From the NCBI GenBank assembly GCA_028289605.1, contig JANQON010000009.1, positions 310,001-374,000 of the forward strand: 64,000 nt of DNA, given 5' to 3'. Within the stretch, counting starts at the first letter, position 1; every line of letters starts with the position of its first letter. Below are positions 19,847 to 38,684 of this stretch, one piece after another. A program made the translations under genes and the position numbers. The stretch comes from Hyphococcus sp. GTDB taxonomy: Bacteria; Pseudomonadota; Alphaproteobacteria; Caulobacterales; Parvularculaceae. The notes under the pieces are model-generated. The model searched no databases, had not been told where the DNA came from, and saw nothing but the letters and a program-made list of their open reading frames with translations.

Positions 19847-22228
19847 TTAGTTAAAGTTCGCCCGGAAATTAACGCCGAAATAGCGGTCGGCTTCGCGCGG
19901 GATCTGATAACGGAACCCGTCGCCGGAGAACGTCGTGACGAAGCTGTCGTCGGTGAGGTTCTTGCCGATTGCGGTGATCCGGTACCGATCGTCATAGAGC
20001 GATACGCCGATATTGATGTCGAGCTGGTTGTAGCTCGGCAGTGGGCTGTTCGGGCTGACCGACCCGTCATTGCCCGGCAACAGCGACAGCTGATCGTCAA
20101 CATGGCTGAACGAGCCGTTGATGAAGCCGGTGATGTCTTCCGTAATCGGCGCTTCATAGCTGGCGCCGAAGGAGTAGTTGAAGTCCGGCGAGAAGAAGAG
20201 ATCGAGACCGGAACGGTCCGTACAATTCGCAGGCGGCATCGCCGTCGTCGGATCGATCGGACAGTTGAACTCATTGATCTCGGCTTCGTTTATGGCGATC
20301 GCGCCGTTAAACGTAAGGTTGTCGATCGGCGACCACAGGGCGTCGATTTCGATGCCGCGGGTCTGAACCGAACCGGCGTTGGTCAGGCGCGTAATGGTCA
20401 CGCCCGTCGAATTGTCGAAGTTATTCGCCTGGAAGTCTTCGATGTCGGCGGTGTAAAGCGCGATGTTGAAGACGACGCCCCCGGCGTTGAACTTGTAACC
20501 AACCTCGAAGCTCTCGCTTGTCTCGGGCGCGATCGGCAGCGCGTCGTTGAAGCCCATATTGTAGAAGGTGTTGAAGCCCGGACCTTTGTATCCCTGGCTA
20601 TACGTGAAATAGACATTGCCGTAATTGCCGCCGTCCCCGAAAAGCGCGCCAAGCTCGGCGTTGGCGCCGGCCTTGATGGAAAAGTCGCTTTCCTCGGTTT
20701 CGTTTTCAAACGTGTTGTCGAAACCCCCGGTTGCCGGACCGAACTGGCTGTTGGGCTGCGCGGGACGAACGCCCACCCCTTGTCGGCCGAACGGATCGTT
20801 ATTGCGACGGGTGTAGACAAACTGGACGTTGTCGTTGGTGTAGCGGAAACCGAACAAGACGCCGAACCAATCGGTAACGTCGAAATCCGCCTGACCGAAG
20901 ATCGCATAGTTATCAAAGCTGTTGTCGAAGAAACCAGTCGCCGAAACGATGTCATCGGCGTTACAGGTCAGGCCGGGATTGGCGTCGAGGATCGGCTGGT
21001 TCTGTCCGCCGTTATTTTGGCAACTGGCGTTCCGAGTGAAGTCCGCCTCCACGTCCAGGCTGAGAATATACCCGCCGAGCAAGTAACGGAGCCGTTGGTC
21101 CTGCGGCGACTGGATGCGCAGCTCTTGCGTAAACTGGCGCCAATCCCTTGTGCCGTCGTCATGGAGCTGAAAGGGAACGCCGAAGACCGGCAATGACGAC
21201 GTACCGCCGATGGACGTGAAATCGCCTTCGCGGAATTCGGTGTTCTCCCAGTTTCGATAGGCCGAGATCGACGTCAATGTGTGGCCGTCGAGGAAGTCAA
21301 GATTCATCTCAACGGAGAACGCGTCAGTGGTGTCGATGGTTCGCGTCGTGAAGTCGTGGTCGACGCGGCGCTGATCGAGATCGAGGTCGGCAACGCCGTT
21401 AACGATGCCGGCGCTGTCGGGAACAGCGAGCGACGCCGGATTGCGTCCGCTCGGCAAAACTTCGAGGTCGGCGCAGCAATCATCGTCAGCTTCCGAATGC
21501 TCATAGATAAAGAGCATGTCGAAATTATCGCTGGGCCTGAATTCAAGCATGCCCCGAACGCCCCAACGGTCGTATCCGTTGACCATCTCATTGTCGAAGA
21601 CGTTGCGGATATGACCGTCGAATTCGGATTTTGTGAGAACGATGCTGCCGTTGATTTCGTCGGAGATGGGCCCGGAAATCTTACCGCGAATCTTCCATTC
21701 ATTGCCTTCGAAATAAGACGCATCGACATAGCCTTCGAGTTCGTCGGAAGGCCGCTTGGTGACGATATTAATCACGCCCGCTTGCGCATTTTTGCCGTAA
21801 AGAGTGCCCTGAGGACCGCGCAGAACTTCGATGCGCTCGATGTCGTAAAGATCGGCGAAAGCCTGACCGGACCGGCCGAGGACAACGCCGTCGACAACGG
21901 TCGACACCGCCGGCTCCGCCGCGAGGGAAAACGAAACCGTGCCGATGCCGCGAATTGAGATCGCTGAGTTGGCGTTGGTCGAGCCTTTTCGGAAACTTAT
22001 CGACGGCACCAGGGTCTGGAGATTTTCGATATTGTTCGCGAACTTATTCTCGATCGCCTCTTCCGGAAGGACGCTGACGGCGACGGGAACCTCCTGAAGG
22101 TTTTGTTCCGTCTTTTGCGCTGTGACGACAATCGTGTCGTATTGTGCGTGGGCGGCGCCAAACAGGGCTAGACACATCGCTGCAATACTCGAAGAGGCGT
22201 AGGCGGTCGTTTTGTGGGTCTTCGTCAT
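19847..22228 (-). CDS. TonB-dependent outer membrane receptor (probable sulfoquinovoside uptake)
   Basis: 793 aa from the ATG at 22228, chosen because GGGAGG lies 7 bases before it; the frame runs further up to 22252. Signal peptide about 1-28 (ends AAHAQ). The TonB-box-like DTIVVTAQK is next, then the plug (LQEVPVAVSVLP, IRGIG, LRGPQGTLYGKNAQAGVINIVTKRP) and a 22-strand-type barrel ending in a Phe/Asn-containing final strand (YFGVNFRANFN). It is a single gene with an operator copy 40-53 bases before its start that matches those at the sulfolactate and sulfoglycolysis operons. It therefore probably imports the sulfoquinovose glycoside across the outer membrane. Substrate is inferred from regulon membership. 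Confidence 0.9.
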   Translation of the reverse strand: MTKTHKTTAYASSSIAAMCLALFGAAHAQYDTIVVTAQKTEQNLQEVPVAVSVLPEEAIENKFANNIENLQTLVPSISFRKGSTNANSAISIRGIGTVSFSLAAEPAVSTVVDGVVLGRSGQAFADLYDIERIEVLRGPQGTLYGKNAQAGVINIVTKRPSDELEGYVDASYFEGNEWKIRGKISGPISDEINGSIVLTKSEFDGHIRNVFDNEMVNGYDRWGVRGMLEFRPSDNFDMLFIYEHSEADDDCCADLEVLPSGRNPASLAVPDSAGIVNGVADLDLDQRRVDHDFTTRTIDTTDAFSVEMNLDFLDGHTLTSISAYRNWENTEFREGDFTSIGGTSSLPVFGVPFQLHDDGTRDWRQFTQELRIQSPQDQRLRYLLGGYILSLDVEADFTRNASCQNNGGQNQPILDANPGLTCNADDIVSATGFFDNSFDNYAIFGQADFDVTDWFGVLFGFRYTNDNVQFVYTRRNNDPFGRQGVGVRPAQPNSQFGPATGGFDNTFENETEESDFSIKAGANAELGALFGDGGNYGNVYFTYSQGYKGPGFNTFYNMGFNDALPIAPETSESFEVGYKFNAGGVVFNIALYTADIEDFQANNFDNSTGVTITRLTNAGSVQTRGIEIDALWSPIDNLTFNGAIAINEAEINEFNCPIDPTTAMPPANCTDRSGLDLFFSPDFNYSFGASYEAPITEDITGFINGSFSHVDDQLSLLPGNDGSVSPNSPLPSYNQLDINIGVSLYDDRYRITAIGKNLTDDSFVTTFSGDGFRYQIPREADRYFGVNFRANFN

Positions 22229-22267
22229 TGATCCCTCCCAATGCAGTCCCATTTCGATGATTCTATT

Positions 22268-22281
22268 GTCTTATATATGAG
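22268..22281. promoter_or_regulatory. GntR-type operator copy 1 (before TonB receptor)
   Basis: GTCTTATATATGAG: 12 of 14 bases match the palindrome GTCTTATATAAGAC shared with three other sites in the cluster. It lies 40-53 bases upstream of the receptor start, in promoter position. Confidence 0.7.
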
Positions 22282-22399: not shown

Positions 22400-24109
22400 T
22401 TACGCAGCGATCGCGGGACGCTTGCGCATCCCAAGCGTCCAGGCAGCGATGTTGCTCAAGACAAGGCTCGCCATTCCGGTCCAGAAGACGCCCGAAAAGG
22501 CGCCGTTCACGATGCCGATTGGGGAAAACAAAAGGTACAGCGCGACAACGGCCGAGAACAATGTGAACGCCAGGGGCCGCGCAAACCGCCACGGCGTCAT
22601 ATCGACCTTGGCGTCTGTTTCATATGTCCAGGCCTCCCGCTTGGGCGCGATTGCGCCCGCAACGAGCATAATTCCCACCTCAATCACGAACAAAATCGCA
22701 TACTGATGAAGGAAATGCAGCGTGACGACATCGTCGAAGACAAATCGCAAGGCGCCGTAAGCAAGCACGTGGAAGATAATGACCGCCTTGGCCCCGATGG
22801 CCGGGGTTCGGCGCGTAAACAGCCCGACGATGACAATCGCCACGATGGGTATGTTGTAAAAGCCGGTAAATATCCGAATGATCTGCCAAAGACCTTCCGG
22901 CGCGAAATAAAGAAGCGGCGCGACGCCGAACGAGAAGAGCGCAATGACCAGGCTCGCGATTTTCGCAACCTTCACCAACTGCTGATCGGACAGCTTGCCG
23001 CCGCGCATCGGCGCATAGATGTCAAGGCAGAACAGCGTCGCCGCACTGTTCAACAACGAATTGAAAGAGCTGAATACCGCGCCGAGCAAGACGGCAAGGA
23101 AAAAGCCGGCCATGCCCACCGGCAAAACATCATTGATCAACCGCGGATAGGCCTGGTCGATCGTCGCCAACTCAGGGCCATAAAGGTGGAACGCAATGAC
23201 GCCCGGGATCATCATCATGAAAGGCACAAGCACTTTGAAGAAACCGGAGAGAAGCACGCCCTTTTGACCTTCGGCAAGGCTGGCCGCTCCGAGCGTGCGC
23301 TGAATGACATACTGGTTCGTGCACCAATAAAACAGATTAGCGAATATCATGCCGGTGAATATCGTCGCGAAAGGCGTAGGATCTGTAGGAGCGCCGATCG
23401 CGTTCAGCTTGTCGGTGTGCACCGTCGTTATGGTCTCCAGCCCGGCGAAAAAGTCTCCCTCGCCGAGAGCAATCAGGCCGAGCGTCGGCACCAAAATTCC
23501 TATAATTAGAAGGCCGACGCCGTTTAGCGTGTCGGAAACCGCGACCGCCCGCAGCCCCCCGAATATTGCGTATACCGACCCGACCGCGCCGATGGCGATC
23601 ACCGTTGCGACGAGCGCTCCAAAATAGCCGACGCCAAGGATTCCCGGAACATCGAAGAGCTGCATGACGGCGACGGAACCGGAATAGAGCACCGACGGAA
23701 TCGTGATCAGTCCGTATCCCAACATGAATAGGATGACCGAGTAGCGCCGCACATCGTCGTCATAGCGCGAGCGCAGAAACTCAGGCAGCGTCGTAAAGGC
23801 GCCGGCGAGATAGCGCGGCAGAAATACGAGCGCCATGAATATTGTCGCGACGGCCGCCGTCACTTCCCACGCCATGCTGCTGAGGTTGAAACCGTAGGCG
23901 GAACCGTTCAGGCCGATTAATTGCTCTGCAGACAAATTGGTCAGCAGCAACGAGCCTGCAATGAAAACGCCGCTCAGCCCGCGCCCAGCAAGAAAATAGC
24001 CGTCCTTGGTGTCGACTTCTCCACGGGTCTTCAGATACGAAATCCACGCGACCAGCGCCATAAAGGCGATACAGGATCCAACCGTCAGCACTAAATCGTT
24101 TTGTTCCAT
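22400..24109 (-). CDS. Sodium:solute symporter (SSS/SLC5 family)
   Basis: 569 aa with about 14 hydrophobic membrane segments. N-terminal signature DGYFLAGRGLSG and the SSS core (LLTNLSAEQLIGLNG, LFMLGYGLITIPSVLYSGS) resemble the Na+/sugar branch (vSGLT-like). It moves a solute across the inner membrane with Na+. It is the second gene after the pseudo-phosphatase gene (61 bases between them), whose promoter carries operator copy 2. Within this regulon it is the only inner-membrane importer, so it is the candidate transporter for sulfoquinovose or sulfoquinovosyl glycerol. Export of an intermediate is less likely given the family. Confidence 0.88.
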   Translation of the reverse strand: MEQNDLVLTVGSCIAFMALVAWISYLKTRGEVDTKDGYFLAGRGLSGVFIAGSLLLTNLSAEQLIGLNGSAYGFNLSSMAWEVTAAVATIFMALVFLPRYLAGAFTTLPEFLRSRYDDDVRRYSVILFMLGYGLITIPSVLYSGSVAVMQLFDVPGILGVGYFGALVATVIAIGAVGSVYAIFGGLRAVAVSDTLNGVGLLIIGILVPTLGLIALGEGDFFAGLETITTVHTDKLNAIGAPTDPTPFATIFTGMIFANLFYWCTNQYVIQRTLGAASLAEGQKGVLLSGFFKVLVPFMMMIPGVIAFHLYGPELATIDQAYPRLINDVLPVGMAGFFLAVLLGAVFSSFNSLLNSAATLFCLDIYAPMRGGKLSDQQLVKVAKIASLVIALFSFGVAPLLYFAPEGLWQIIRIFTGFYNIPIVAIVIVGLFTRRTPAIGAKAVIIFHVLAYGALRFVFDDVVTLHFLHQYAILFVIEVGIMLVAGAIAPKREAWTYETDAKVDMTPWRFARPLAFTLFSAVVALYLLFSPIGIVNGAFSGVFWTGMASLVLSNIAAWTLGMRKRPAIAA

Positions 24110-24170
24110 TGTCGGCCGCCGCGTGTTGTTAGACCGGTCTTAAGAAGCGATCGCTTGTGAACCGGATTCG

Positions 24171-24629
24171 TTAATGCGTAGAAAGGAGCGATTCGATGCG
24201 GGCCTCGATCATGTCGATAACCCTGACAAAGGCGCCGTCGCCGTCATAGAAGGGATCAGGAATCTCATGGTCGGGGTCGAAGGGTTCAACAACGGCGCTG
24301 TCCCCCGCCCTCCGCGCGAGCTTGAAGACCGCCAGGTTCTGCGCGTCCATGGCCAGTATGCGGTCAAATTCTCCGAAAACAGATTGAGTCGCTTGCCGAC
24401 AAATGAAACTGGATAAATCATAGCCGCGCCGCGCGCATTCCTCGACGGTGCGAGGATCTGCAGGCCCGCCTACATGTTTCCCAATGACGCCGGCCGAAGA
24501 AAACGTGAAGCGATGCGACGCATTTCGTTCGGCGGCCTTGTAACCGGCAATAATCTCAGCGGCCGGCGACCGCGAGTAATTGCCATTGTCGACGAAGAGA
24601 ATGCGACTGCGCTGGACGTCCGCGGTCAC
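24171..24629 (-). CDS. Low-molecular-weight protein-tyrosine-phosphatase homologue lacking the catalytic Cys
   Basis: 152 aa from GTG at 24629. The fold matches LMW-PTP: P-loop region FVDNGNYSRSPAAE, DLSS-xx-RQ helix, and a PDPFYDGDGAF loop with general-acid Asp125. The P-loop should be C-x5-R; here residue 14 is Asp (codon GAC), Arg20 is kept, and the second usual Cys is Ser19. A Cys-thiol phosphatase mechanism is therefore excluded. It could be a binding protein, a regulator, or an enzyme of altered chemistry. It sits behind operator copy 2 and before the symporter, within the sulfoquinovose regulon. No clear role can be assigned. Confidence 0.85.
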   Translation of the reverse strand: MTADVQRSRILFVDNGNYSRSPAAEIIAGYKAAERNASHRFTFSSAGVIGKHVGGPADPRTVEECARRGYDLSSFICRQATQSVFGEFDRILAMDAQNLAVFKLARRAGDSAVVEPFDPDHEIPDPFYDGDGAFVRVIDMIEARIESLLSTH

Positions 24630-24713: not shown

Positions 24714-24727
24714 ATCTTATATAAGAC
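24714..24727. promoter_or_regulatory. GntR-type operator copy 2
   Basis: ATCTTATATAAGAC contains the perfect 12-base palindrome TCTTATATAAGA (24715-24726); 13 of 14 bases match the consensus. It is 85 bases upstream of the pseudo-phosphatase start and just past the end of glpD. Confidence 0.75.
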
Positions 24728-24787: not shown

Positions 24788-26290
24788 TCATGCAGCGGCG
24801 TCAGCGCTCGCGCAATGCGCGCGGACGGCGGCGATCTCTTCTTCGGTCAAATGCAAGTAAAGCTTGGAGCGCCGTTTCAGGATGTCGTCTGCAGTCGCCG
24901 CAAACTCCTTGTCCTGAAGATATTGGATCTCCGCATCTGTAAGACCGCTTCCATAGCAGCGGCCCAGTGCGCCGTAATTTGCCGCACCGCCCAGAACGTC
25001 TTCTATCCGCGTGCCGTAGGCGCGAAGAAGCCGCAACAGATGCTGGCTTTCAAGCCAGGAGAATTGCTGCGCCATTTCCCGGTGGAAGGCGCCAAAGTCC
25101 GCGTCCTTCATGTCGCCGCCGGGCAGCGGGGCGCCGGCCGTCCAGGCGCCGCCGCGCTGGGACAAAACCGGACCGAGTTTTTCCAGTGCATGCTCCGCCA
25201 GTTTCCGATACGTCGTTATCTTACCGCCGTAGACTGACAACATGGGGGGATCGCCTTCTACGTTGAAAACGTAGTCGCGCGTCACAGCCGATGCGTTCTT
25301 GTCTTCGGCATTGTCAAAAAGCGGACGCACCCCTGCGTAGGTTGCACGGACCTGCTCGCGCGTCACGGGAAGTCTGAAATACTCGCTTGCGCTGCGACAG
25401 AGATAGTCGATTTCGCTTTCGGTTATATCGACAGCGCCAGGCTCGTCTTCATACGGTACGTCTGTCGTACCGATCAATGTGAAGTCGCGTTCATACGGAA
25501 TGGCGAAAATGATGCGCCCGTCGCCGCCCTGAAATAGATACGCATGGGCGCCGTCATAAAGACGGCGGACAATGATGTGGCTGCCTTTGACAAGGCGGAG
25601 TCCAAATGATGGTTTTGCGTTTGTCTGGGCAACGTTCTGAACCACGTCATTGACCCACGGCCCGGCCGCATTGACGACGACCTTGGCGCGCACATCCTCC
25701 ACAGCGCCGCCCGCCCCTTCGAGACGCGCCGTCCATACGCCGTCTCCGCGCGTCAAACCCGTTACTTTCGTTCTTGTCAGGATGGTCGCGCCGCGCTCAG
25801 CGGCGTCCATCGCGTTCAACACCACCAGACGCGAATCTTCCACCCAGCAGTCGGAGTATTCATAGCCGTGACGAAACGTTTCCTTGAGCGGAGCGCCGCG
25901 CGGATCGCCTTTGAAGCGCACCGCCCTCGTCGGCGGGAGTTTCCGGCGCCCGCCTAGATGGTCGTAGATGAAGAGCCCTGCGCGCAACATCCATCGCGGG
26001 CGAAGTTCCTTGTGGTGGGGAAGGACGAAACGCATTGGCCAGATGATATGCGGCGCCGCGTTCAACAGCGTTTCGCGTTCGATCAGCGATTCGCGCACCA
26101 GTCGAAACTCATAATGTTCAAGATAGCGCAGGCCCCCATGAATCAACTTGGTGCTTGCCGATGAGGTTGCGGAGGCAAGATCGCCCTTCTCGCACAAGAG
26201 CACGCTATGGCCGCGTCCGGCGGCGTCCCGCGCAATGCCGGCGCCGTTGACGCCGCCGCCGATGATCAGGATGTCGTAGGCATTTGTCAC
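24788..26290 (-). CDS. glpD: FAD-dependent glycerol-3-phosphate dehydrogenase
   Basis: 500 aa, usual length for GlpD. N-terminal Rossmann motif IIGGGVNGAGIARDAAGRG binds FAD. The GlpD landmarks SSASTKLIHGGLRYLE, NAAGPWVNDV and YGGKITTYRKLAE are all present. It oxidises glycerol 3-phosphate to dihydroxyacetone phosphate at the membrane, passing electrons to quinone. The start is GTG at 26290, 9 bases after slcC, so it is the last gene of the suyA-suyB-comC-suyZ-slcC operon. Glycerol released from sulfoquinovosyl glycerol, once phosphorylated by a kinase not in this window, would feed it, and its product joins the DHAP made by the sulfosugar aldolase. Confidence 0.92.
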   Translation of the reverse strand: MTNAYDILIIGGGVNGAGIARDAAGRGHSVLLCEKGDLASATSSASTKLIHGGLRYLEHYEFRLVRESLIERETLLNAAPHIIWPMRFVLPHHKELRPRWMLRAGLFIYDHLGGRRKLPPTRAVRFKGDPRGAPLKETFRHGYEYSDCWVEDSRLVVLNAMDAAERGATILTRTKVTGLTRGDGVWTARLEGAGGAVEDVRAKVVVNAAGPWVNDVVQNVAQTNAKPSFGLRLVKGSHIIVRRLYDGAHAYLFQGGDGRIIFAIPYERDFTLIGTTDVPYEDEPGAVDITESEIDYLCRSASEYFRLPVTREQVRATYAGVRPLFDNAEDKNASAVTRDYVFNVEGDPPMLSVYGGKITTYRKLAEHALEKLGPVLSQRGGAWTAGAPLPGGDMKDADFGAFHREMAQQFSWLESQHLLRLLRAYGTRIEDVLGGAANYGALGRCYGSGLTDAEIQYLQDKEFAATADDILKRRSKLYLHLTEEEIAAVRAHCASADAAA

Positions 26291-26299: not shown

Positions 26300-27229
26300 T
26301 CAACTCCCGGACAACGCGTTGACAATGTTTTTCAGCGTGACGCGACTGACGCGCACATTCGACTCCTTGGTAACGCCGGCAATATGCGGCGTGAGGATGA
26401 CGTTTTTCAGCCCGTCGAAAATGGCGCCGGCGTCTTTGGTCAGCGGTTCTGTTTCAAATACGTCAAGCGCTGCGCCCGCTAGCCGGCCCTCGCGCAGCGC
26501 TGCAGCAAGCGCGATTTCCTCGATGACGCCTCCCCTCGCAGCATTGATAACAACGGCGTCTTCTTTCATTTTCCTGATCGAGTCGGCGTTGATTAAATGA
26601 CGCGTTTCATCTGTCAGCGGCGTATGCAGGCTGACGATATCTGAGGTCGACAGGAGCCCCTCGAGCGTCACCTTCTTTGCCGCGCGCCAATGAGGGCTGT
26701 CTTCCGGCAAGTAGGGATCGAAAGCGATCACGCGCATGCCGAGCGCATCTGCGCGCACAGCCGTTTCTCGGGCAATCGCGCCAAATCCGATAAGCCCGAT
26801 TGTCCGCCCACTGACTTCGCCGCCCATCAATGCACCGCGGGGCCAGTCTCCCGCCGCCACCGCAGATGACGACAGAAATGCGCCGCGCACCAGCATCATT
26901 GCGGCCGCGATCACATATTCCGCCACGGCGACGTCATTGGCGCCGGTCGCCGGAAATACCTCTGCGTTGCGCGCCTTGCAGGCGTCAAGGTCGATATTGT
27001 CGAGCCCCACACCGAGACGGCCAACCGCCAAAAGGTTCGGCGCCGCCTCAAGCAGCGGTCCGCGCACCTGCGTGCGGTTGCGCACAATCAAAGCGCGGGC
27101 GTCGGAAAGGGCTGCATGAAGGCGCGCTGTATCGTCGACGAGGGTCGGGTCGTAGACAACATCAAATCCGGCAAGCAACTCTTCAATCGCCGTTTCATCC
27201 ATGAATTCGGAAATCACGATGTCCGCCAT
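26300..27229 (-). CDS. slcC: (S)-sulfolactate dehydrogenase (D-isomer 2-hydroxyacid dehydrogenase family)
   Basis: 309 aa from the ATG at 27229; a longer frame to 27334 overlaps suyZ. NAD-binding motif GLIGFGAIARETA, followed by the family catalytic Arg (NAARGG), Glu (DVFETEPL) and His (LTPHIAG). It resembles phosphoglycerate dehydrogenase but lacks the ACT domain, like known SlcC. SlcC oxidises (S)-sulfolactate to sulfopyruvate with NAD+. Co-location with comC and suyAB reproduces the known sulfolactate-epimerising set, which supports this over a serine-biosynthesis role. Confidence 0.8.
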   Translation of the reverse strand: MADIVISEFMDETAIEELLAGFDVVYDPTLVDDTARLHAALSDARALIVRNRTQVRGPLLEAAPNLLAVGRLGVGLDNIDLDACKARNAEVFPATGANDVAVAEYVIAAAMMLVRGAFLSSSAVAAGDWPRGALMGGEVSGRTIGLIGFGAIARETAVRADALGMRVIAFDPYLPEDSPHWRAAKKVTLEGLLSTSDIVSLHTPLTDETRHLINADSIRKMKEDAVVINAARGGVIEEIALAAALREGRLAGAALDVFETEPLTKDAGAIFDGLKNVILTPHIAGVTKESNVRVSRVTLKNIVNALSGS

Positions 27230-27245
27230 CGGGGGCCGTCCTTGA

Positions 27246-30478: not shown

Positions 30479-30766
30479 CTACCAGCGCTTGGTTTTAAGG
30501 TTGTGGACGTGGACATGCGCGCCCTTTACGGCCGGAGCGATCATACGGCCGATATCCGCGCCATATTTGATAACCGTGTCATCCGTCGACAGATCGCTCA
30601 GCGCCACTTTATGTCCGATCGGCACGTCCTCGGTCGCCGTTAACCGAAAATCGGAGTCGTCTTCGGTAACCACGCAGAGCATTTCCGTGCCCGCGGACAA
30701 TCCTTCCACAACGACGACGCCGACATTGTCGTCCTTGTGGTGAACAAGAAGATGTGGTGACGACAC
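30479..30766 (-). CDS. suyA: (R)-sulfolactate sulfo-lyase, small SAF-domain subunit
   Basis: 95 aa SAF domain, as in UxaA/GarD N-terminal domains. Includes DVPIGHKVALSDL, a turn with YGADIGRMIAPAVKGAHV, and the closing HVHNLKTKRW typical of the family. The separate small gene before the large subunit is the SuyA-SuyB arrangement. It is the first gene of a six-gene minus-strand operon reaching glpD. Its promoter region, shared with the divergent gntR, contains operator copy 3. Confidence 0.87.
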   Translation of the reverse strand: MSSPHLLVHHKDDNVGVVVVEGLSAGTEMLCVVTEDDSDFRLTATEDVPIGHKVALSDLSTDDTVIKYGADIGRMIAPAVKGAHVHVHNLKTKRW

Positions 30767-30868
30767 GAGTGTCCTGCCTTTCTTTTTGATGCGTATTCTC
30801 TATTGCGGCGTTGCCGCTCCTGACGTCGAACGGCCGGCGCTTCCGCCCGGTATTGCGGCCGACGCGAA

Positions 30869-30882
30869 CTCTTATATATGAT
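30869..30882. promoter_or_regulatory. GntR-type operator copy 3 (between suyA and gntR)
   Basis: CTCTTATATATGAT matches 11 of 14 bases of GTCTTATATAAGAC. It lies in the divergent region, 103 bases before suyA and 49 bases before gntR, so one site could control both the operon and the regulator itself. Confidence 0.65.
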
Positions 30883-30930
30883 AGAATACAACATTTAAAT
30901 GGACAAGAGGCGGCCGCGGGAATTATAAAA

Positions 30931-31677: not shown

Positions 31678-31734
31678 CGATACGTGCGCGATAGAGCGCG
31701 CCGATCCGATCTCTTTACGTCGGCAATATTTTAT

Positions 31735-31748
31735 GTCTTATGTAAGAC
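31735..31748. promoter_or_regulatory. GntR-type operator copy 4 (before aldehyde dehydrogenase)
   Basis: GTCTTATGTAAGAC matches 13 of 14 bases of the palindrome. It lies 27-40 bases upstream of the ATG at 31775, and its presence there argues against the longer frame that starts at 31733. Confidence 0.75.
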
Positions 31749-31774
31749 AGCATAGTTCAATGGACGGTGCGATT

Positions 31775-33214
31775 ATGGACAAGCGGCAGCAGGTTTTCAT
31801 CGACGGTCAATGGCGCGACGCTGCGGACCGCGCGACGTTTGACGTGCTCAACCCAGCAACCGGCGATGTCATCGGAACCGCGCCCATGTGCGGCCGGCCC
31901 GACACGGCGCTCGCGATCGATGCGGCGCACAAGGCCTTTTTGACCTGGCGCGAGGCGGGATCGGAAGCGCGCGCCCAGATCATTTATCGCATGTATGAAT
32001 GCCTGATGGACCATCAGGTCGCGCTCGGCGCATTGCTGACCGAGGAAATGGGCAAACCGCTGGCAGAGGCGAAGGGCGAAGTCGCCTTCGGCGCCAAATT
32101 CTTCAAATGGTTCGCCGAAGAAACCCGCCGCGTGTACGGCGACGTGATCCCCTCCCCCTGGCCCGACAAGCGCATCGTGGTGACGAAGCATCCTGTCGGA
32201 GTCGTCGGGGCCATCACGCCCTGGAACTTTCCGAACTCCATGATCGCCCGCAAACTCGCTGCGGCGCTGGCGGCCGGTTGCACCATGGTGGTCAAGCCTG
32301 CTTCGCAAACGCCCTACTCAGCGCTCGCTTACGGCGACATTGCCGAGGAAGCGGGCGTTCCCCCGGGCGTCGTCAACATTCTCACCGGACGCGCATCAGA
32401 GATCGCCGCTGAAATGTGCGAAAACCCCAAGCTTCGCAAAATTTCGTTCACCGGGTCCACCGAAGTCGGCAAACGGCTCGCCGCACAGGCCGGCGCCCAT
32501 ATGAAGCGCGTCTCTATGGAGCTCGGCGGCAACGCGCCCTTCATCGTGTTCGACGACGCCGACCTCGACGCCGCCGTCGAAGGCGCGATGATTTCAAAAT
32601 TCAGAAACGCCGGCCAAACCTGCGTTTGCGCTAATCGCGTTCTGGTTCAATCAGGCGTTTACGATCAATTCGCTGAGAAGCTCGGCGCCGCCGTTCGAGC
32701 TCTAAAAGTGGGCAACGGCGTTGAGGCGGGCGTAACCCAAGGCCCGCTGATCGACGAGGCGGCGGTCGACAAGGCGCGCGAGCATATTACCGACGCTACA
32801 AGTCTTGGCGCCGAAGTCCAGGTCGGCGGGGACAGCCATGAACTGGGTGGGCTCTATTTTCAGCCGACATTGCTGACCAACGTGCCGCGCAACGCAAAAA
32901 TCTTCAGTGAGGAAACCTTTGGCCCGGTCGCCCCGCTTTTTCGGTTCGAAACGGAAGAAGAAGCCATCGCCATGGCGAACGACACCGAGTACGGCCTTGC
33001 CTGTTACGCCTATACCGCCGACCTCGGCCGCGCATGGCGCCTTATGGACAAGCTCGAATATGGAATGGTCGGCGTCAATGAAGGCCTTGTTTCAACAGAG
33101 GTTGCGCCATTTGGCGGCGTGAAGGATTCCGGCCTCGGCAATGAAGGCTCAAAGTACGGCGTCGACGACTATCTGGATATCAAATACTCGTTGATCGGCG
33201 GGCTGAAAACCTGA
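31775..33214 (+). CDS. Aldehyde dehydrogenase, probable sulfolactaldehyde dehydrogenase
   Basis: 479 aa from the ATG at 31775 (31760 is an in-frame alternative). Succinate-semialdehyde dehydrogenase (GabD)-like. It has the cofactor motif GFTGSTEVGKRL in the form SFTGSTEVGKR, the catalytic Glu in ELGGNAPF, the catalytic Cys in NAGQTCVCANR, and the C-terminal SGLGNEGSKYG-like segment of GabD proteins. Sulfolactaldehyde dehydrogenases of sulfoglycolytic bacteria belong to this family and make sulfolactate. It is the first gene of the five-gene plus-strand operon with kinase, aldolase, isomerase and glycosidase. The sulfolactaldehyde substrate is inferred from that context. Confidence 0.85.
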   Translation: MDKRQQVFIDGQWRDAADRATFDVLNPATGDVIGTAPMCGRPDTALAIDAAHKAFLTWREAGSEARAQIIYRMYECLMDHQVALGALLTEEMGKPLAEAKGEVAFGAKFFKWFAEETRRVYGDVIPSPWPDKRIVVTKHPVGVVGAITPWNFPNSMIARKLAAALAAGCTMVVKPASQTPYSALAYGDIAEEAGVPPGVVNILTGRASEIAAEMCENPKLRKISFTGSTEVGKRLAAQAGAHMKRVSMELGGNAPFIVFDDADLDAAVEGAMISKFRNAGQTCVCANRVLVQSGVYDQFAEKLGAAVRALKVGNGVEAGVTQGPLIDEAAVDKAREHITDATSLGAEVQVGGDSHELGGLYFQPTLLTNVPRNAKIFSEETFGPVAPLFRFETEEEAIAMANDTEYGLACYAYTADLGRAWRLMDKLEYGMVGVNEGLVSTEVAPFGGVKDSGLGNEGSKYGVDDYLDIKYSLIGGLKT

Positions 33215-33250
33215 TGCCTCTCGTCGCATCGCCAGCGAAGGATTATTGAG

Positions 33251-34165
33251 ATGGCGCGCGTTTTCTGCGTCGGCCACGCCGTTGAAGACCACATATTCCG
33301 TGTGGATACGTTGCCTGCGCAGGCGAAGAAATATCAGGCCAAGGGATTTGAGGTTATCGGCGGCGGGCCGGCCGCGAACGCGGCTGTCGCCATCGCCAGG
33401 CTGGGCGGCCACGCTTATCTTGCGGCGCGTATTGGCGATGACATAATCGGCGACTCAATTGTCCGGAACCTCACGGCGGAAGGCGTCGACTGCGACGCCG
33501 TACGGCGCTGTGAAGGGGTTCCCTCCTCGCTGTCGTCTGTGTTTGTCGACGACAAGGGCGAGCGCATGATCGTGAACCATCGCCCTGCGGATATGCCGAC
33601 GGAACCCGATTGGATCGCGCCCCTGTTTCCAGACGGCGCCGGCGCCGTCCTCGCCGATGTCCGCTGGCCGGAAGGCGCGCTTTTCGCCCTGCGCCAGGCG
33701 AAAAAACGCGGCATCCCCGGCATTCTTGATGCGGACCTTCCGGTCCCGCACGACGGCGCCCTTGTCGACGAAGCGTCGATTGTCGCGTTCTCTGCGGACG
33801 GTTTGCGCGACTATACGGGCGTGACCGACATTGCCGAGGCCCTCGTGAAAGTCAGCACCGAAACGGAAGCGCAATGCTGTGTGACCTGTGGCGCAGAGGG
33901 CGTCCTTGTCGCTGAATCGTCCGGCGTGCGCAGGACGCCGGCGTTTCCGGCAGAGGCGGTCGACACCCTCGGGGCCGGCGACATCTGGCACGGCGCTTTC
34001 GCCTTGGCGATTGCAGAACAACAATCCATGGACGAAGCAGTCGCGTTCGCCAGCGCCGCCGCCGCCATCAAGGTGACGCGGCCGGGCGGGCGCGCCGGCG
34101 CGCCGACGCGCGCAGAAGTCCTCTCACTGATGAACACACCCACCAATCTGGAGACCGTTGAATGA
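33251..34165 (+). CDS. PfkB-family sugar kinase, probable sulfofructose kinase
   Basis: 304 aa ribokinase-type fold. It has the N-terminal GGGPAANAAVAIARLGG sugar-binding motif and the C-terminal signature DTLGAGDIWHGAFA, with Asp244 as catalytic base. Length matches YihV, the sulfofructose kinase of the E. coli pathway, and the overall look is similar. It would make 6-deoxy-6-sulfofructose 1-phosphate using ATP in the cytoplasm. Its stop overlaps the aldolase start (ATGA), indicating tight coupling. Another ketose substrate is possible on sequence alone. Confidence 0.82.
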   Translation: MARVFCVGHAVEDHIFRVDTLPAQAKKYQAKGFEVIGGGPAANAAVAIARLGGHAYLAARIGDDIIGDSIVRNLTAEGVDCDAVRRCEGVPSSLSSVFVDDKGERMIVNHRPADMPTEPDWIAPLFPDGAGAVLADVRWPEGALFALRQAKKRGIPGILDADLPVPHDGALVDEASIVAFSADGLRDYTGVTDIAEALVKVSTETEAQCCVTCGAEGVLVAESSGVRRTPAFPAEAVDTLGAGDIWHGAFALAIAEQQSMDEAVAFASAAAAIKVTRPGGRAGAPTRAEVLSLMNTPTNLETVE

Positions 34166-35208
34166 CCGCGACCGCCGGGAAATTATGGGGGATGCGTCGC
34201 CTCGCCGATGCGAACGGCCGATTTAAAATGACCGCCGTCGATCAACGCCCGCCGATCAAAAACCCAATTAAGGAAAAACTGAACCTCGATGCGGCGCCGT
34301 GGGAGCCTGTCGCCGAATTCAAGAAGATCCTAATCGAGGAACTGCAGGACGAGTCGAGCGCCATGTTGCTCGACCCTCATTACGCTTACCCCCACGGAAT
34401 TTCTGTCTACAGCCCGGCGAAGGGTCTCATCCTGACACTGGAAGACTCGGTATTCGAAGACACGCCCGACGGCCGCATCTCAAGTGAAATCGATCATTGG
34501 TCAGTTGAAAAGATCAAACGCGCCGGCGGCGACGCGGTGAAGGTGTTAACCTGGTATCGGCCCGATGCGCCGAAGCACGTTTGCGACAAGCAGAAGGACT
34601 TCACCGCGAGAATCGGCGAGGCCTGCGCGCGATTCGACATTCCCTATGTCTTTGAACTGCTCGTTTACCCGCTCGCCGCCGACAGCGAGCAGACCCGTGA
34701 CTATGTCGAAATGAAAACCAAAAAGCCGGAACTGGTGATTGAAAGCGTCCGCACATTCGCCGACGACCGTTACGGCGTTGACGTGTTCAAACTAGAGAGC
34801 CCGCTGGCCGCGTCGGACACGCCCGGCGTCGACGGCGACGACGCGGAGGAAGCGCAGCGGTATTTCGACGAGCTTGGCGCGGCCGCGGGCAGGCCCTGGG
34901 TCATGCTCTCCGCCGGCGCCGGCAAGGAAGAGTTTCGCAAAGTCCTCACCCACGCCTATCGCGCAGGCGCTTCCGGCTATCTCGCTGGCCGCGCCATCTG
35001 GCTCGAAGCGTTTCAGGCGTTTCCCGACTGGGATGCGATCCGGAACGGTTTGCGGCAAGATGCTGCGTCTTATATGCGCGCCCTGAATGAGCTGACGGAC
35101 GCCGACGCGACGCCCTGGACGCAACATCCGAAGTTCGACCAAACGGGCGGCGACATTGCACCCAACAACGAAACTTTTCGAATTCACTATCAAGGGATGG
35201 AGGTCTAA
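34162..35208 (+). CDS. LacD-like class I aldolase, probable sulfofructose-phosphate aldolase
   Basis: 348 aa, similar to tagatose-1,6-bisphosphate aldolase LacD and longer than YihT (about 290). N-terminal GMRRLADANGRFKMTAVDQR matches LacD starts. The expected Schiff-base lysine is Lys210 in VDVFKLESP, and VMLSAGA with the GYLAGRAIW phosphate-site loop is conserved. It would cleave sulfofructose 1-phosphate into DHAP and 3-sulfolactaldehyde. The next genes encode an isomerase and a glycosidase, and the previous gene a kinase, giving a complete sulfo-EMP-type set. The substrate is inferred. Confidence 0.82.
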   Translation: MTATAGKLWGMRRLADANGRFKMTAVDQRPPIKNPIKEKLNLDAAPWEPVAEFKKILIEELQDESSAMLLDPHYAYPHGISVYSPAKGLILTLEDSVFEDTPDGRISSEIDHWSVEKIKRAGGDAVKVLTWYRPDAPKHVCDKQKDFTARIGEACARFDIPYVFELLVYPLAADSEQTRDYVEMKTKKPELVIESVRTFADDRYGVDVFKLESPLAASDTPGVDGDDAEEAQRYFDELGAAAGRPWVMLSAGAGKEEFRKVLTHAYRAGASGYLAGRAIWLEAFQAFPDWDAIRNGLRQDAASYMRALNELTDADATPWTQHPKFDQTGGDIAPNNETFRIHYQGMEV

Positions 35209-35212
35209 ACAG

Positions 35213-36610
35213 ATGGGCCTGACATACGGCGTTGCGGCGCTCGGCCGCCCGACATTTGATGTTCCGTTTGCAGAGGAAATGCTCGAAAAGGCGTTTGACG
35301 CCCTTGAAGCGGCGGGCATTTCCGTTGTGGGGCCCAAGCGTTTGCTGTTCGACGCCGATGCAGCGGAAACCGCATTTGAAGAGATCGCTGCGCACGGCGC
35401 GATAGACGCTCTTCTTATTCTCCAAATTACATTCACTGACGCGACGATGACGGTCCGGCTCGCCGAGCGATCGCCGGCGCCGGTCGCCATCTGGGCGGTT
35501 CCGGAACCGCGCATCGGCGGGCGGCTGCGTCTGAACGCGTTTTGCGGATTGAACCTCGCCGCCCATGCGCTTGGCAAAGCGGGCGTGCCCCATAGCTGGC
35601 TTTACGCCGCGCCGGATGCGCCAAAAATCGCTGAAGACTTGAAGGCGCTTGCGCGCCCGGGCGAAATCAAACCCACTGCGGCGGCGGTCTCCGACAAATC
35701 CGCCGGCGCGGCGGCGGCGACAGCGCTTGAAGGTCTGAAGGGCGCCAAGATCAGTGTTGTCGGCGAACACCCCGCCGGCTTTGACACGTGTGAGTTCGAC
35801 GCCAAGGAACTGAATGCAATGGCAGGCCTTGAAGTAGAACAGTTCGATCTCACGGGATTATTCGACAAGGCCAAATCCGTCGACGCCGATCGCGTCGCCG
35901 CCGTCAAGTCCTCGGTGGAGGCCGACCTCAGCAAACTCAATGAGGTGGATCAGGAACAGCTCGACCGTTCCTTACGCCTGTTCTGCGCATTGGAGGACCT
36001 CCAACAATCGTCCGGGGCGAGTGGACTGGCGGTGCGCTGTTGGCCGGAAACCTTCACCGAATATGGCTGCGCCGCCTGCGGCCCGATGGCGATGATGAAC
36101 CAGAAATGCGTCCCGAGCGCCTGCGAAGCGGATGTATACGGATCTTTTTCCGCGCTGCTGCTCCAAGAGATCGCCAGGGAACCGGTCTGGATGGCGGATC
36201 TGGTGGACCTCGACTTCAACGACGACACCGGCGTCTTCTGGCATTGCGGGCTGGCGCCGCTCACCATGTGCGATCCCGAAGCAACGCCGGAAGCGACCAT
36301 CCACACCAACCGGAAAATGCCGCTGTTGCATCAATTTCCCTTAAAGCCAGGCCGCTTTACTATTGCGCGGGTTTCGCAGTCGCGCGGCGAGACCAAGCTC
36401 GTCATCGGAAAGGGTGAATTCATCCGCAGGCCGATGGCGTTCACCGGTACGTCGGGCGTAGCGCGGTTTGATGTCTCAGCGAAGGAATTTTGCACCCGGG
36501 TGATGGATGAATCCCTGGAACACCACTACGCCATCGCCTATGGCGATCACCGATCGACGCTCAGGGAAATTGGCGCTTCACTGAAGCTGCCGGTGCTGGA
36601 GTTGTGTTGA
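35213..36610 (+). CDS. L-fucose/arabinose-isomerase-like protein, probable sulfoquinovose isomerase
   Basis: 465 aa from the ATG at 35213, with GGAGG 10 bases upstream; a frame from 35156 overlaps the aldolase. The N-terminal half is variable. The C-terminal half carries L-fucose-isomerase-type features: RCWPETFTEYGCAACGPMAM, an acidic metal-site candidate (CEADVYGS), DLDFNDDTGVFWHCG and a late His-rich EHHYAIAYGDH. Such enzymes interconvert aldoses and ketoses with a metal ion. By position it should convert sulfoquinovose to sulfofructose. It is unrelated to YihS (AGE family), so the step is done by a different fold than in E. coli. Confidence 0.72.
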   Translation: MGLTYGVAALGRPTFDVPFAEEMLEKAFDALEAAGISVVGPKRLLFDADAAETAFEEIAAHGAIDALLILQITFTDATMTVRLAERSPAPVAIWAVPEPRIGGRLRLNAFCGLNLAAHALGKAGVPHSWLYAAPDAPKIAEDLKALARPGEIKPTAAAVSDKSAGAAAATALEGLKGAKISVVGEHPAGFDTCEFDAKELNAMAGLEVEQFDLTGLFDKAKSVDADRVAAVKSSVEADLSKLNEVDQEQLDRSLRLFCALEDLQQSSGASGLAVRCWPETFTEYGCAACGPMAMMNQKCVPSACEADVYGSFSALLLQEIAREPVWMADLVDLDFNDDTGVFWHCGLAPLTMCDPEATPEATIHTNRKMPLLHQFPLKPGRFTIARVSQSRGETKLVIGKGEFIRRPMAFTGTSGVARFDVSAKEFCTRVMDESLEHHYAIAYGDHRSTLREIGASLKLPVLELC

Positions 36611-36611
36611 G

Positions 36612-38684
36612 GTGAGCGCGTTCAATCCCGTCCACAGCGGCTGGCTGTCGCTGCCGCTGCTCCAGGCGACGACGGCGCCGGCGCACTCCCGCCACGGCAA
36701 GGTTGAATTAGAGACAACGGCGGGACCGCTGGTTGTATCCTTGCATTCCTTTGGCGTGCGTCTTCGCTTTGGCGGCGAACGACCGCGTGACTATGGCCTA
36801 GTGACGCAGGTCGACAAGGCCGATGTCGTGTCGGTCAAGAAAGACGCGAACAAGATTGTAATCGAAAGCGCGACGCACAGCGTCGCCATCGATCCTCAGT
36901 CGCTTGCCATTGAAGTGGCTCGCGGCGGCGATGTGAAACTGCGCAGCGCGCGAGACGGTCATTTCGTTCGCGAATACCGCCTGGCGCCGATTTCACGTAC
37001 GGACAAGGGTTGGGTGGCCCATTTCGATCTGACCTCGGAAGATCATGTTTACGGCCTCGGCGAGAAATGGAGCAAACTCGACAAGCGCGGTCAGTACATC
37101 CACTCCTACAATCACGACGCCCTCGGCGTGAATGCGGAAGCGTCATACAAAAACGCTCCGTTCGCCTGGAGCACGAGGGGCTGGGGCGTTTTCACCAATA
37201 CGCCCGCTCCCGTGCAACATGGCGTCGGCTTCTCTCCGTGGTCGCAGCGCGCCTACGGCGTTTATGTTGAGGACGATTATCTCGACCTGTTTCTGTTCAC
37301 TGAGGATACGGGCGCCGCTATCCTGCGCGACTACACTGCGCTGACAGGACGTGCGCCCACACCGCCTGACTGGGCGCTCGGCCTTATCATGTCAAAAGCC
37401 TACTATCAGGATGAGGAGGAACTCCTCTCCGTCGCCGCGGAGATCCGCCGGCGCGGCCTGCCTTGCGATACGATCACCTTAGACGGGCGCGCGTGGCTTG
37501 ATGTCCAGACACGGTTTTCCTTTGAGTGGGACAAGTCGCGTTACCCGGACCCCGCCAGTACGCTGAAAAAACTGAAGGACATGAACTTCAAGGTCTGCGT
37601 CTGGGAATTTCCGCTCATATCGACGCAGAACCCTCTCTTTGGCGAGCTCGCCGACAAAGGGTGGCTATTGAAGGACGCCCCGACTGGACAAACGCATATT
37701 TATCAGTGGGACCCTGAGCCCTTCAGCGACGTTCTCACGCCGCTTCCAGACTCAGGCATTCTCGATTTCACCCATCCCGACGCTTATGCATTCTGGCGAG
37801 ACAGTCATAAGAATTTGTTCGACGTCGGCGTTGACATGATCAAAGCGGACTTCGGCGAACAGGTGACGGACGAGGTCGTCGCGCACAATGGAGAATCAGG
37901 GCGCGCCCTGCATAATGTCTATTCGTATCTCTACAATAAGTGCGTGTACGAAGCCTCTGAACAATACGCCGAGAACGGTCCGTTTCTGTTCAGCCGCTCA
38001 TCGTGGACCGGCTGTCAGCGCTTTCCTTCGCAATGGGGCGGCGATCCGCAAGCTGACTGGGAAGGCCTCGCAGCCAGCCTGCGCGGCGGCTTGTCCTGGG
38101 GGTTGAGCGGCGGACCATTTTACGCGACCGATATTGGCGGATTTTACGGCGACCAGCGTGATCCAAAACTCTATGTGCGCTGGCTGCAGATGGCCATTTT
38201 CTCGGCGCATGTTCGCATGCATGGAATCGGACCGCGCGAACCCTGGTCATATGGCCCGGCCGCCGAGCAAGCGGCCATCGAGGCGGTTCGGCTGCGTTAT
38301 CAGCTTCTGCCTTACGTGAAAAGAGTTGTTGAAGCCGCGTCGCAGACTGGCCTGCCGGTGCAGCGCGCGATGGCGCTCGCCTGTCCGAAAGAACCGGAGG
38401 CGTGGCACTTTGATCAACAGTTCTTTTTCGGCGACGACCTCCTCGTGGCGCCGTGCGTGCGCGACGACGACACGGTCCGCGTTTATATTCCGGAAGGCCG
38501 GTGGCGCCGGTTTCCGGACAACCAGCCGATCGACGGCGGCAAGATTCACAATTTGCGGCTCGACCTCAATCAAATCGCCGTCTTTGCCCGAGAGGGCGCG
38601 GAAATTCCATTGGCCTCGCCAACCGAATACATCGACAAAATTGACGAACTGGCAATCGAGCGAGTCTGGCGAGCCGAAGGCTAG
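36612..38684 (+). CDS. GH31 alpha-glycosidase, probable sulfoquinovosidase of divergent type
   Basis: 690 aa from GTG at 36612, one base after the isomerase stop. GH31 architecture: N-terminal beta domain, (beta/alpha)8 core at about 245-600, C-terminal beta domain. The nucleophile is Asp413 in IKADFGE and the acid/base Asp478 in WGGD. There is no signal peptide, so it acts in the cytoplasm on an imported glycoside. Compared with what I recall of E. coli YihQ, which grips the sulfonate with Arg301, Trp304 and Tyr508, this protein keeps Arg301 but has Phe304, and Phe511-Tyr512 in the DIGG loop. Sulfoquinovosyl glycerol is the likely substrate by context; an alpha-glucosidase or alpha-xylosidase is possible. 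Confidence 0.85.
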   Translation: MSAFNPVHSGWLSLPLLQATTAPAHSRHGKVELETTAGPLVVSLHSFGVRLRFGGERPRDYGLVTQVDKADVVSVKKDANKIVIESATHSVAIDPQSLAIEVARGGDVKLRSARDGHFVREYRLAPISRTDKGWVAHFDLTSEDHVYGLGEKWSKLDKRGQYIHSYNHDALGVNAEASYKNAPFAWSTRGWGVFTNTPAPVQHGVGFSPWSQRAYGVYVEDDYLDLFLFTEDTGAAILRDYTALTGRAPTPPDWALGLIMSKAYYQDEEELLSVAAEIRRRGLPCDTITLDGRAWLDVQTRFSFEWDKSRYPDPASTLKKLKDMNFKVCVWEFPLISTQNPLFGELADKGWLLKDAPTGQTHIYQWDPEPFSDVLTPLPDSGILDFTHPDAYAFWRDSHKNLFDVGVDMIKADFGEQVTDEVVAHNGESGRALHNVYSYLYNKCVYEASEQYAENGPFLFSRSSWTGCQRFPSQWGGDPQADWEGLAASLRGGLSWGLSGGPFYATDIGGFYGDQRDPKLYVRWLQMAIFSAHVRMHGIGPREPWSYGPAAEQAAIEAVRLRYQLLPYVKRVVEAASQTGLPVQRAMALACPKEPEAWHFDQQFFFGDDLLVAPCVRDDDTVRVYIPEGRWRRFPDNQPIDGGKIHNLRLDLNQIAVFAREGAEIPLASPTEYIDKIDELAIERVWRAEG

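Follow-up and report, generated by a model that had tools for sequence, protein, structure and literature searches.

Can a single bacterial cell degrade sulfoquinovose (SQ) by sulfoglycolysis and also release its sulfur? SQ output amounts to about 10 billion tons a year (PMC12890257), and descriptions of its breakdown by C–C cleavage mostly portray a relay, with other organisms taking over an excreted C3 or C2 sulfonate. The question is raised by a gene cluster at positions 19847–38684 of a 64-kb stretch of DNA, hereafter the window, from the 4.29 Mb genome of the alphaproteobacterium Hyphococcus sp. (assembly GCA_028289605.1, contig JANQON010000009.1, positions 310,001–374,000). An original prediction had read this cluster as a single regulon leading from sulfosugar to sulfite, which is supported, at the level of sequence, by the resemblance of its isomerase to SftI and of its kinase to YihV, by GH188-like and CsqR-like genes in related clusters, and by an operator common to its transcription units. 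We consider it highly probable that a SuyR-controlled tandem pathway would convert sulfoquinovosyl glycerol or SQ into pyruvate, dihydroxyacetone phosphate (DHAP), and sulfite within one cell.

In the proposed route, a TonB-dependent receptor and a Na+ symporter would import the substrate, as their shared operator suggests, and a glycosidase of family GH31 may free SQ. An isomerase of the SqvD type would, judging by its family, turn SQ into sulfofructose, which a YihV-type kinase would phosphorylate to sulfofructose-1-phosphate, the best supported of the sugar steps. A class I aldolase, to which context and a conserved Schiff-base lysine point, would split this ester into DHAP and sulfolactaldehyde (SLA), and an aldehyde dehydrogenase (ALDH) would by family oxidise SLA to (S)-sulfolactate. 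SlcC and ComC would then invert (S)- to (R)-sulfolactate via sulfopyruvate, in line with their families and the known scheme, SuyAB would cleave the latter to sulfite and pyruvate (strongly indicated by family), the SuyZ family suggests export of the sulfite, and GlpD may handle the glycerol arm.

Layout of the cluster and its shared operator

Every gene named in the original prediction is an intact open reading frame (ORF) at its place and in its family. The minus-strand set suyA-suyB-comC-suyZ-slcC is present with its five genes in that order and, followed by glpD, forms a row running from 30766 down to 24788. The plus-strand order was likewise confirmed by ORFs and families, with gntR (30811–31677) followed by genes for ALDH, PfkB kinase, LacD-like aldolase, isomerase, and GH31 glycosidase at 31733–38684. 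Further along the minus strand lie a phosphatase-symporter unit and then the TonB receptor gene.

All four units share an operator. The palindrome GTCTTATATAAGAC precedes the TonB receptor gene (22268–22281, 2 mismatches), the phosphatase-symporter unit (24714–24727, 1 mismatch), and the ALDH gene at the head of the sulfoglycolysis operon (31735–31748, 1 mismatch), and it stands between suyA and gntR (30869–30882). At up to 3 mismatches, these are the only matches in the window, 4 against 0.44 expected, and none of 100 shuffles of the window gave 4; the claim that receptor and symporter share the regulator's sites is thereby upheld. As the pattern was derived from this window, it was tested outside it. 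In the whole genome, it occurs at 4 places at up to 2 mismatches, 3 of them within the cluster, and the reversed control pattern at 13.

For comparison, GTDB species genomes were scanned with an isomerase alignment, and the best-scoring 80 of at least 552 relatives were taken as loci, in which genes were counted by tblastn; being the top-scoring relatives, they bias all frequencies given below toward close kin. Among them, the operator (up to 2 mismatches) is found in 24 of 25 loci with the GntR gene as compared to 2 of 55 without it, corresponding to 61 sites in 470 kb and 2 sites in 983 kb. Where both suyA and gntR were found, they are adjacent (23/23), and they diverge in all ten loci drawn. 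A site lies between them or at their edge in 20 of these 23 relatives, the remaining three (L031, L040, L097) having 3 mismatches, against a background of 51 in 1150 random 400-base stretches of the same loci.

The regulator itself (GntR/UTRA, HutC-type, plus strand, its start probably further in, near 30931) is 41% identical to the GntR protein beside suyA in Paracoccus versutus. Similar proteins (40–45%), together with the site, stand beside suyA in P. versutus and in three further stretches (L161, L165, L166) that contain no sugar-cleavage genes; these three come from seven SuyB stretches, of which the other four show neither GntR nor site. This arrangement suggests a regulator native to sulfolactate breakdown whose regulon came to include the sugar: the sulfolactate cluster of P. 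versutus likewise has a GntR gene and operator beside suyA, and the sites of the window additionally cover sugar uptake and sulfoglycolysis. Most likely, the GntR protein is thus a SuyR-like sulfolactate-cluster regulator that took over sulfoglycolysis, and it probably binds GTCTTATATAAGAC before all four units. Its effector is probably sulfolactate or a neighbouring C3 sulfonate, which is our guess; with such an effector, the downstream half of the pathway would govern the upstream half.

Enzymes of the two halves

For the isomerase (35156–36610, plus strand), the sole NCBIfam match at E 1e-4 is sulfoquinovose isomerase SftI (NF048012; E 6e-84 over 29–479, 282 bits against a 700-bit cut-off). 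The protein contains Fucose_iso_C, finds no match in the PDB at E 0.01, and gives no blast match to YihS (AGE family). Its invariant residues E311, D335, and H443 (numbering of alignment A2) fall at the positions of the presumed metal ligands E337, D361, and H528 in E. coli FucI; as hhalign of A2 with FucI assigns just 7% probability (E 0.005), this correspondence rests on the positions of these three residues. By sequence, the isomerase probably belongs to the known SqvD/SftI type. The prediction that isomerase and aldolase are unlike those of E. coli therefore stands in part, as the isomerase is not YihS and the aldolase is distant from YihT, but the isomerase is probably not of a new type.

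The kinase (33251–34165, plus strand) has sulfofructose kinase YihV as its best PDB match (7ag6, 41% identity), scoring 222 bits, while the entries ranked next reach 157 and 108. It keeps K27, R105, N109, and R138, and we assume that the YihV-type Lys27, Asn109, and Arg138 hold the sulfonate. In 71 orthologues from the 80 loci (at least 40% identity, more than 90% coverage), K27, R105, and R138 are invariant and N109 occurs in 61, whereas ribokinase lacks all four and PfkB shares K27 only. The aldolase candidate (34162–35208, plus strand; class I, LacD/PRK12858 branch) carries K210 at the position of YihT K193, presumably the Schiff-base lysine, and this residue is invariant in the aligned orthologues, in YihT, and in a Deinococcus relative.

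The candidate SLA dehydrogenase (31733–33214, plus strand, probably starting in fact near 31775, past the operator) belongs to the succinate semialdehyde dehydrogenase (SSADH) family, its best PDB match being E. coli GabD with 640 bits. It has the catalytic Cys, the WNF motif, and both pocket arginines (equivalent to Arg171 and Arg289), a set described for RlGabD (PMC10599462). E. coli GabD also shows WNF and both arginines, and the set fails to separate SLA dehydrogenase from SSADH. Among the window proteins compared, there is no match to YihR or YihU, and the ALDH takes the place of the SLA reductase YihU.

In the sulfolactate half, SuyB (29297–30469, minus strand) shares 77% identity with the P. 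versutus and 68% with the Cupriavidus pinatubonensis protein (68–79% with Paracoccus and Cupriavidus proteins). The 26 plasmid records matching it at E 1e-60 fall into 13 at 60–80% and 13 at no more than 38.4% identity, a gap that places the window protein in the SuyB group and not among general UxaA hydrolases. The small subunit SuyA (30479–30766, minus strand), checked separately, is 71% identical to its P. versutus and 48% to its C. pinatubonensis counterpart, so that separate suyA and suyB genes of the true SuyAB clade are present, and the case that SuyAB would release sulfite and pyruvate here is strong. A second, distant SuyB relative (33%) on contig C17 of the same genome (707651–708817) is probably another UxaA-type hydrolase.

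ComC, a predicted (R)-sulfolactate dehydrogenase (28244–29254, minus strand), has the L-sulfolactate dehydrogenase model as its best NCBIfam match (186 bits, cut-off 500). The SlcC-like protein, putatively an (S)-sulfolactate dehydrogenase (26300–27334, minus strand), belongs to the D-2-hydroxyacid dehydrogenase family, with relatives of 54–66% identity in sulfoglycolysis and suy clusters and phosphoglycerate dehydrogenases as PDB matches at E 1e-45; its ORF overlaps that of suyZ, so that the true slcC start is probably internal. By family and order, the SlcC–ComC pair is present, as it is beside suyAB in L161, L163, and L165. The SuyZ-like exporter for sulfite or sulfate (27246–28244, minus strand; YeiH family, TIGR00698 at 133 bits with a cut-off of 233, PF03601) is 48% identical to an exporter adjoining suyAB in P. 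versutus.

The predicted outer-membrane receptor for SQ or its glycerol derivative (19847–22252, minus strand; Pfam Plug and beta-barrel, operator just upstream) has relatives of 36–59% identity in the tandem loci L032–L035, L037, and L038 and is 30% identical to the receptor of a Zymomonas cluster discussed below. The sodium:solute symporter, predicted to act at the inner membrane (22400–24109, minus strand; NCBIfam PRK10484, 715 bits), has relatives (76–77%) in only two of the 80 loci, L031 and L039. In its place, L033, L034, L035, L037, and L038 show ORFs of 180–192, 428–455, and 352–364 amino acids after the isomerase or GH31 gene, which by size alone resemble a tripartite ATP-independent periplasmic transporter; the third of them is on the other strand in L038.

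Two genes were added to the earlier map. One encodes a low-molecular-weight phosphotyrosine phosphatase-like protein (24171–24629, minus strand; Pfam LMWPc, 2.5e-25) that shares its operator with the symporter and has a relative (61%) adjoining cluster L019 of the same genus. The other, glpD, encodes a glycerol-3-phosphate dehydrogenase (24788–26290, minus strand; NCBIfam PRK13369, 748 bits) and follows slcC after 10 bases as the last gene of the suy row; it is also found in L028, L037, L085, and L091, and a glycerol kinase gene lies elsewhere in the genome (contig C6, 5302–6762). The position of glpD would fit the use of glycerol from SQ-glycerol, as if sulfoquinovosyl glycerol were the true substrate.

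Distribution, the GH31 glycosidase, and alternative readings

Across the 80 loci, the kinase gene is found in 72, the aldolase gene in 64, a GH188-like gene in 59, a GH31 gene related to that of the window in 9 (including L042 at just 36%), and a CsqR-like regulator gene in 30 (at least 30% identity, so that some may be general family members). The GH188 query, a Zymomonas protein, matches SqgA in the PDB (8qc2 with 345 bits, 8qc3 with 344) ahead of 8zn9, annotated as 'oxidoreductase' (305), and the dehydrogenase 3ezy (90); the copies in the loci carry the GH188-like label by virtue of their match to this query. Such genes in related clusters point to SQ.

Of the 80 loci, 19 encode SuyB next to the isomerase (at least 80% coverage and 60% identity), as do 18 of the 50 with full flanks, and each of the 19 has the GntR gene; among them are Exilibacterium tricleocarpae R142, Hoeflea poritis, Hoeflea alexandrii, Nitratireductor arenosus, N. 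alexandrii, Albidovulum inexpectatum, and Woeseiaceae genomes. The tandem cluster of E. tricleocarpae R142 (L033) is of the GH31 type, and that of H. alexandrii DSM 16655 (L080) of the GH188 type. An even sample of the class (385 genomes, counting the own one; up to four SuyB candidates scored per genome) holds six further genomes with a strong isomerase match (above 200 bits), three of which have SuyB, on other contigs (p 0.01). Within the genus, the isomerase occurs in the own genome and in 2 of 27 others, and in each of these three the enzymes of both halves are encoded; the two relatives, G012 (locus L019) and G002 (L020 and L028), carry every enzyme gene from slcC to GH31.

Beside the bias of the 80 loci already mentioned, several points weigh against the proposed tandem pathway. 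The site between suyA and gntR in the window has 3 mismatches, and the nearest NCBIfam models of isomerase, ComC, SuyZ, and GH31 have curated cut-offs that these proteins do not reach. The aldolase is just 25% identical to YihT and lies closer to tagatose-bisphosphate aldolases and 8tnf, all four positions of the Deinococcus kinase (27 and 109 among them) are occupied by Arg, and no mutarotase was matched by any of the 17 window proteins compared. In the same-genus locus L019, the 20 kb fetched contain neither symporter nor glpD. Of the 21 loci with SuyB at 40% coverage or more, only five show a window-type ALDH (L031, L033, L048, L049, L068) and five lack the aldolase (L032, L034, L038, L039, L043, some on short contigs); the cluster is thus not uniformly complete elsewhere, and either some pathways use unlinked or unknown enzymes or contig ends cut them. 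Three more genus members (G010, G019, G026) have SuyB and lack the isomerase, which means that the two halves are separable. Loci L114, L115, and L116 from the same genus encode SuyB (87–88%) and SuyA; the isomerase is absent from their genomes, and the 16–20 kb fetched show no match to SlcC, ComC, GntR, or the operator.

The GH31 protein (36612–38684, plus strand), a candidate sulfoquinovosidase outside the YihQ clade by family, position, and tree, has the alpha-xylosidase YicI as its nearest characterised relative. The catalytic Asp pair is kept, its ADFGE and WGGD segments aligning with YihQ D405 and D472, and D, Q, F, and F stand where YihQ has Q288, R301, W304, and Y508. Across its group of 16 rows, W304 and Y508 never occur and R301 once (L026); we take these three residues of YihQ to contact the sulfonate. 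Instead, DGRAW is present in all 16 rows and TR a few residues on in 15 (RR in L035), neither being found in YicI. In a tree from which rows L143, L132, and L042 had been dropped beforehand, the window protein's own group of seven rows is well supported (99/99); ORF calls are unreliable in the GC-rich GH31 loci L146–L150.

Three interpretations of this protein were discarded. It is not a YihQ orthologue, as it matches the alpha-xylosidase model PRK10658 with 449 bits and the alpha-glucosidase model PRK10426 with 231, lacks the YihQ residues, and is separated from YihQ on another branch of the tree. The cluster-linked GH31s do not form a single clade, since the tree requires two label changes. 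Lastly, DGRAW and TR are no proof of sulfonate binding, because both are also kept in five genomes without an isomerase match.

The most serious alternative concerns this enzyme: the SQ pathway may hold while the GH31 cuts another alpha-glycoside, such as an alpha-xyloside or alpha-glucoside, and SQ is imported free. The bit scores (356 for YicI, 161 for YihQ) and the loss of R301, W304, Y508, and Q288 are in keeping with this, as are the class-sample genomes: of the seven non-own genomes with a GH31 at 47–53% identity, five (GH31s 47–51% identical) show no isomerase match, and two of these five GH31s adjoin generic sugar ABC transporters; two have weak YihR-like matches (23–28%) nearby. On the other side, the GH31 gene sits where related clusters have the GH188-like gene, directly after the isomerase (8 of 9 and 54 of 59 start within 150 bases of its end), and the two never co-occur, with 12 loci having neither. 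Exceptions to this slot are the GH31 of L110, 3.8 kb off, and the GH188-like genes of L032, L034, L036, L038, and L102, kilobases off. No window protein compared matches GH188. Further, a 46% relative closes an ABC transporter-isomerase-kinase-aldolase operon in Deinococcus, and five of the seven non-own GH31 genomes encode SuyB as compared to 33 of all 384 (p 6e-5 by a hypergeometric test that makes no correction for kinship); for other GH31s in the class sample, the figure is 2 of 9, including one YihQ-type case. Weighing both sides, we lean toward predicted sulfoquinovosidase activity of the window GH31 and regard another substrate as possible, albeit unlikely. That the original prediction placed a GH31 glycosidase in the sulfosugar half is thus right as to family; it is not of the YihQ type, and cleavage of a sulfoquinovoside would be a matter of context.

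The same missing YihQ residues, a fucose isomerase-family isomerase (Fucose_iso_C), and an aldolase nearest to 8tnf and the LacD/tagatose type could be taken to mean that the whole pathway serves another 6-sulfo sugar (sulfofucose, sulforhamnose, or an unknown sulfo-glycoside), the more so as Paracoccus wurundjeri couples a sulfofucose pathway to SlcC, ComC, and SuyAB (PMC12421959). That route, however, is of the Entner-Doudoroff (ED) kind, and lysates showed no sulfofucose isomerase activity (PMC12421959), whereas here the isomerase's only NCBIfam match is the SQ isomerase model, the kinase is YihV-type, and related clusters carry GH188-like genes and CsqR-like regulators, so that we consider a different sulfosugar improbable. 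Least credible of all is a chance neighbourhood of a sulfolactate cluster and an unrelated sugar operon, for example for fucose or tagatose. The halves do occur apart in other genomes and every enzyme family has unsulfonated members, but one operator stands before all four units and is tied to the regulator gene across the 80 loci, the adjacency to SuyB recurs in alpha- and gammaproteobacteria, and the expected product of the ALDH is the substrate of the other half. We accordingly retain the tandem SQ pathway.

Relation to known systems and wider occurrence

With sulfo-EMP (Embden-Meyerhof-Parnas type; the E. coli yih genes and an Arthrobacter variant ending in sulfolactate), the window shares an isomerase step, a PfkB sulfofructose kinase, and a class I aldolase (PF01791); SLA is oxidised in Arthrobacter (PMC8873060) as is proposed here. 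It differs in its FucI-like isomerase, its distant aldolase, the lack of YihR and YihU matches, a GH31 that is not YihQ, and the predicted breakdown of sulfolactate in place of its export. Sulfo-EMP2 (SqvD, SqiK, and SqiA of Bacillus urumqiensis) probably has the SqvD/SftI-type isomerase in common with the window, but the kinase is PF00294 and not PF00365 (SqiK), and the aldolase is class I and not class II PF01116 (SqiA); sulfo-EMP2 proper is excluded by these families. The profile comparison that had been proposed hence yields a YihV-type kinase combined with a probable SqvD/SftI-type isomerase, the SqiK and SqiA families being absent from the pathway genes. Hybrids of sulfo-EMP and sulfo-EMP2 enzymes have been reported from Proteobacteria (PMC12890257, PMC9594981).

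That both halves are joined in one organism, contrary to most described systems, is borne out by the joining itself but is not unprecedented. Sulfo-TAL clusters of Thermotogae and Chloroflexi also encode SuyAB together with sulfoglycolysis genes, which was proposed to allow full use of the SQ carbon; they belong to other phyla and use transaldolase cleavage as opposed to kinase and aldolase, and a shared-operator regulon is not described for them in the portion of the paper drawn on (PMC9594981). In P. wurundjeri, SlcC, ComC, and SuyAB finish a sulfosugar in one cell, as we propose here, by a tandem sulfofucolytic-sulfolactate sulfolyase pathway that was shown by growth, proteome, and metabolites and whose coexistence of sulfosugar and sulfolactate breakdown its authors call unusual (PMC12421959). 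There, the sugar is sulfofucose, the route ED-type, the uptake by an ABC transporter, and the SLA dehydrogenase unknown, whereas the window suggests SQ, an EMP-type route, and a TonB receptor with a Na+ symporter. The same paper cites Klebsiella, which converts SQ to sulfolactate plus about 10% sulfate by an unresolved mechanism (PMC12421959). Sulfolactate clusters of Paracoccus and Chromohalobacter comprise the same enzymes as the window (SlcC, ComC, SuyAB, SuyZ; PMC9594981). Release of SQ sulfite in one cell is moreover known from the C–S cleaving pathways (sulfo-SMO/ASMO and sulfo-SDO/ASDO), which use the whole of SQ (PMC12890257); in these, oxygenases free sulfite from the intact sugar, while here a C3 sulfonate would be formed first and then cut by SuyAB. 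The GH31 of the window resembles YihQ and the GH188 enzyme SqgA in operon position and retains the Asp pair, but lacks the sulfonate residues of YihQ.

Among the openly licensed papers listed on SQ combined with SuyAB, TonB, Zymomonas, or the taxa concerned, none describes this form in its title or abstract opening. What looks new is the hybrid sulfo-EMP/SuyAB form, its single regulon, the possible uptake via TonB, and a GH31 in the GH188 slot without the YihQ sulfonate residues. A broader scenario is conceivable, albeit slightly doubtful when all its parts are taken jointly: a mobile isomerase-kinase-aldolase-glycosidase module may have been put under the SuyR operator, giving rise to one-cell SQ mineralisation in several alpha- and gammaproteobacterial groups, with uptake via TonB receptors and with the GH31 as a second line of sulfoquinovosidases, recognising the sulfonate through residues of its own (the clade-conserved DGRAW and TR segments), unlike YihQ.

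If the tandem pathway is real, full sulfur release by sulfoglycolysis in single cells would recur across alpha- and gammaproteobacteria, a GntR gene with GTCTTATATAAGAC beside suyA would be the DNA signature of such clusters, and cultured strains exist. There would also be an extra line of GH31 sulfoquinovosidases, liable to escape searches based on YihQ or GH188, and TonB receptors would be candidates for taking up the sugar.

Related gene sets were noticed elsewhere. Plasmid pZZM402 of Zymomonas mobilis ZM4 (NC_013785.1; L018 128–11361 and L029 12958–13854) encodes a class II aldolase, an epimerase, a SqvD-type isomerase, a GH188-like protein, a major facilitator superfamily (MFS) transporter, a TonB receptor, a further MFS transporter, an SSADH-type ALDH, and a PfkB protein, a set that resembles a hybrid sulfo-EMP cluster and is carried by a plasmid of an organism used in industrial ethanol production; judging by titles and abstract openings, the papers listed on SQ and Zymomonas do not seem to deal with it. 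Plasmid pDEIPE01 of Deinococcus peraridilitoris (L151 3331–14994), from another phylum and typed as mobilizable, holds together SSADH, GntR, an ABC transporter, a FucI-like isomerase, PfkB, a tagatose-type aldolase, GH31, and an AEC-family transporter. Five of its proteins match those of the window at 28–47%; its GntR gives no match to that of the window at E 1e-4, and no operator is found in the stretch at up to 3 mismatches. In G319 and G215 (L160 7832–13741 and L162 7313–14218), a CsqR-type SQ cluster is accompanied by SuyAB elsewhere in the genome beside hpsNOP-like genes, so that the halves may there be linked via 2,3-dihydroxypropane-1-sulfonate (DHPS) rather than by one regulon. Directly adjoining the cluster in the window, at 38736–40409, lies a gene for a cyclic-nucleotide-binding domain fused to a thioredoxin-reductase-like domain.

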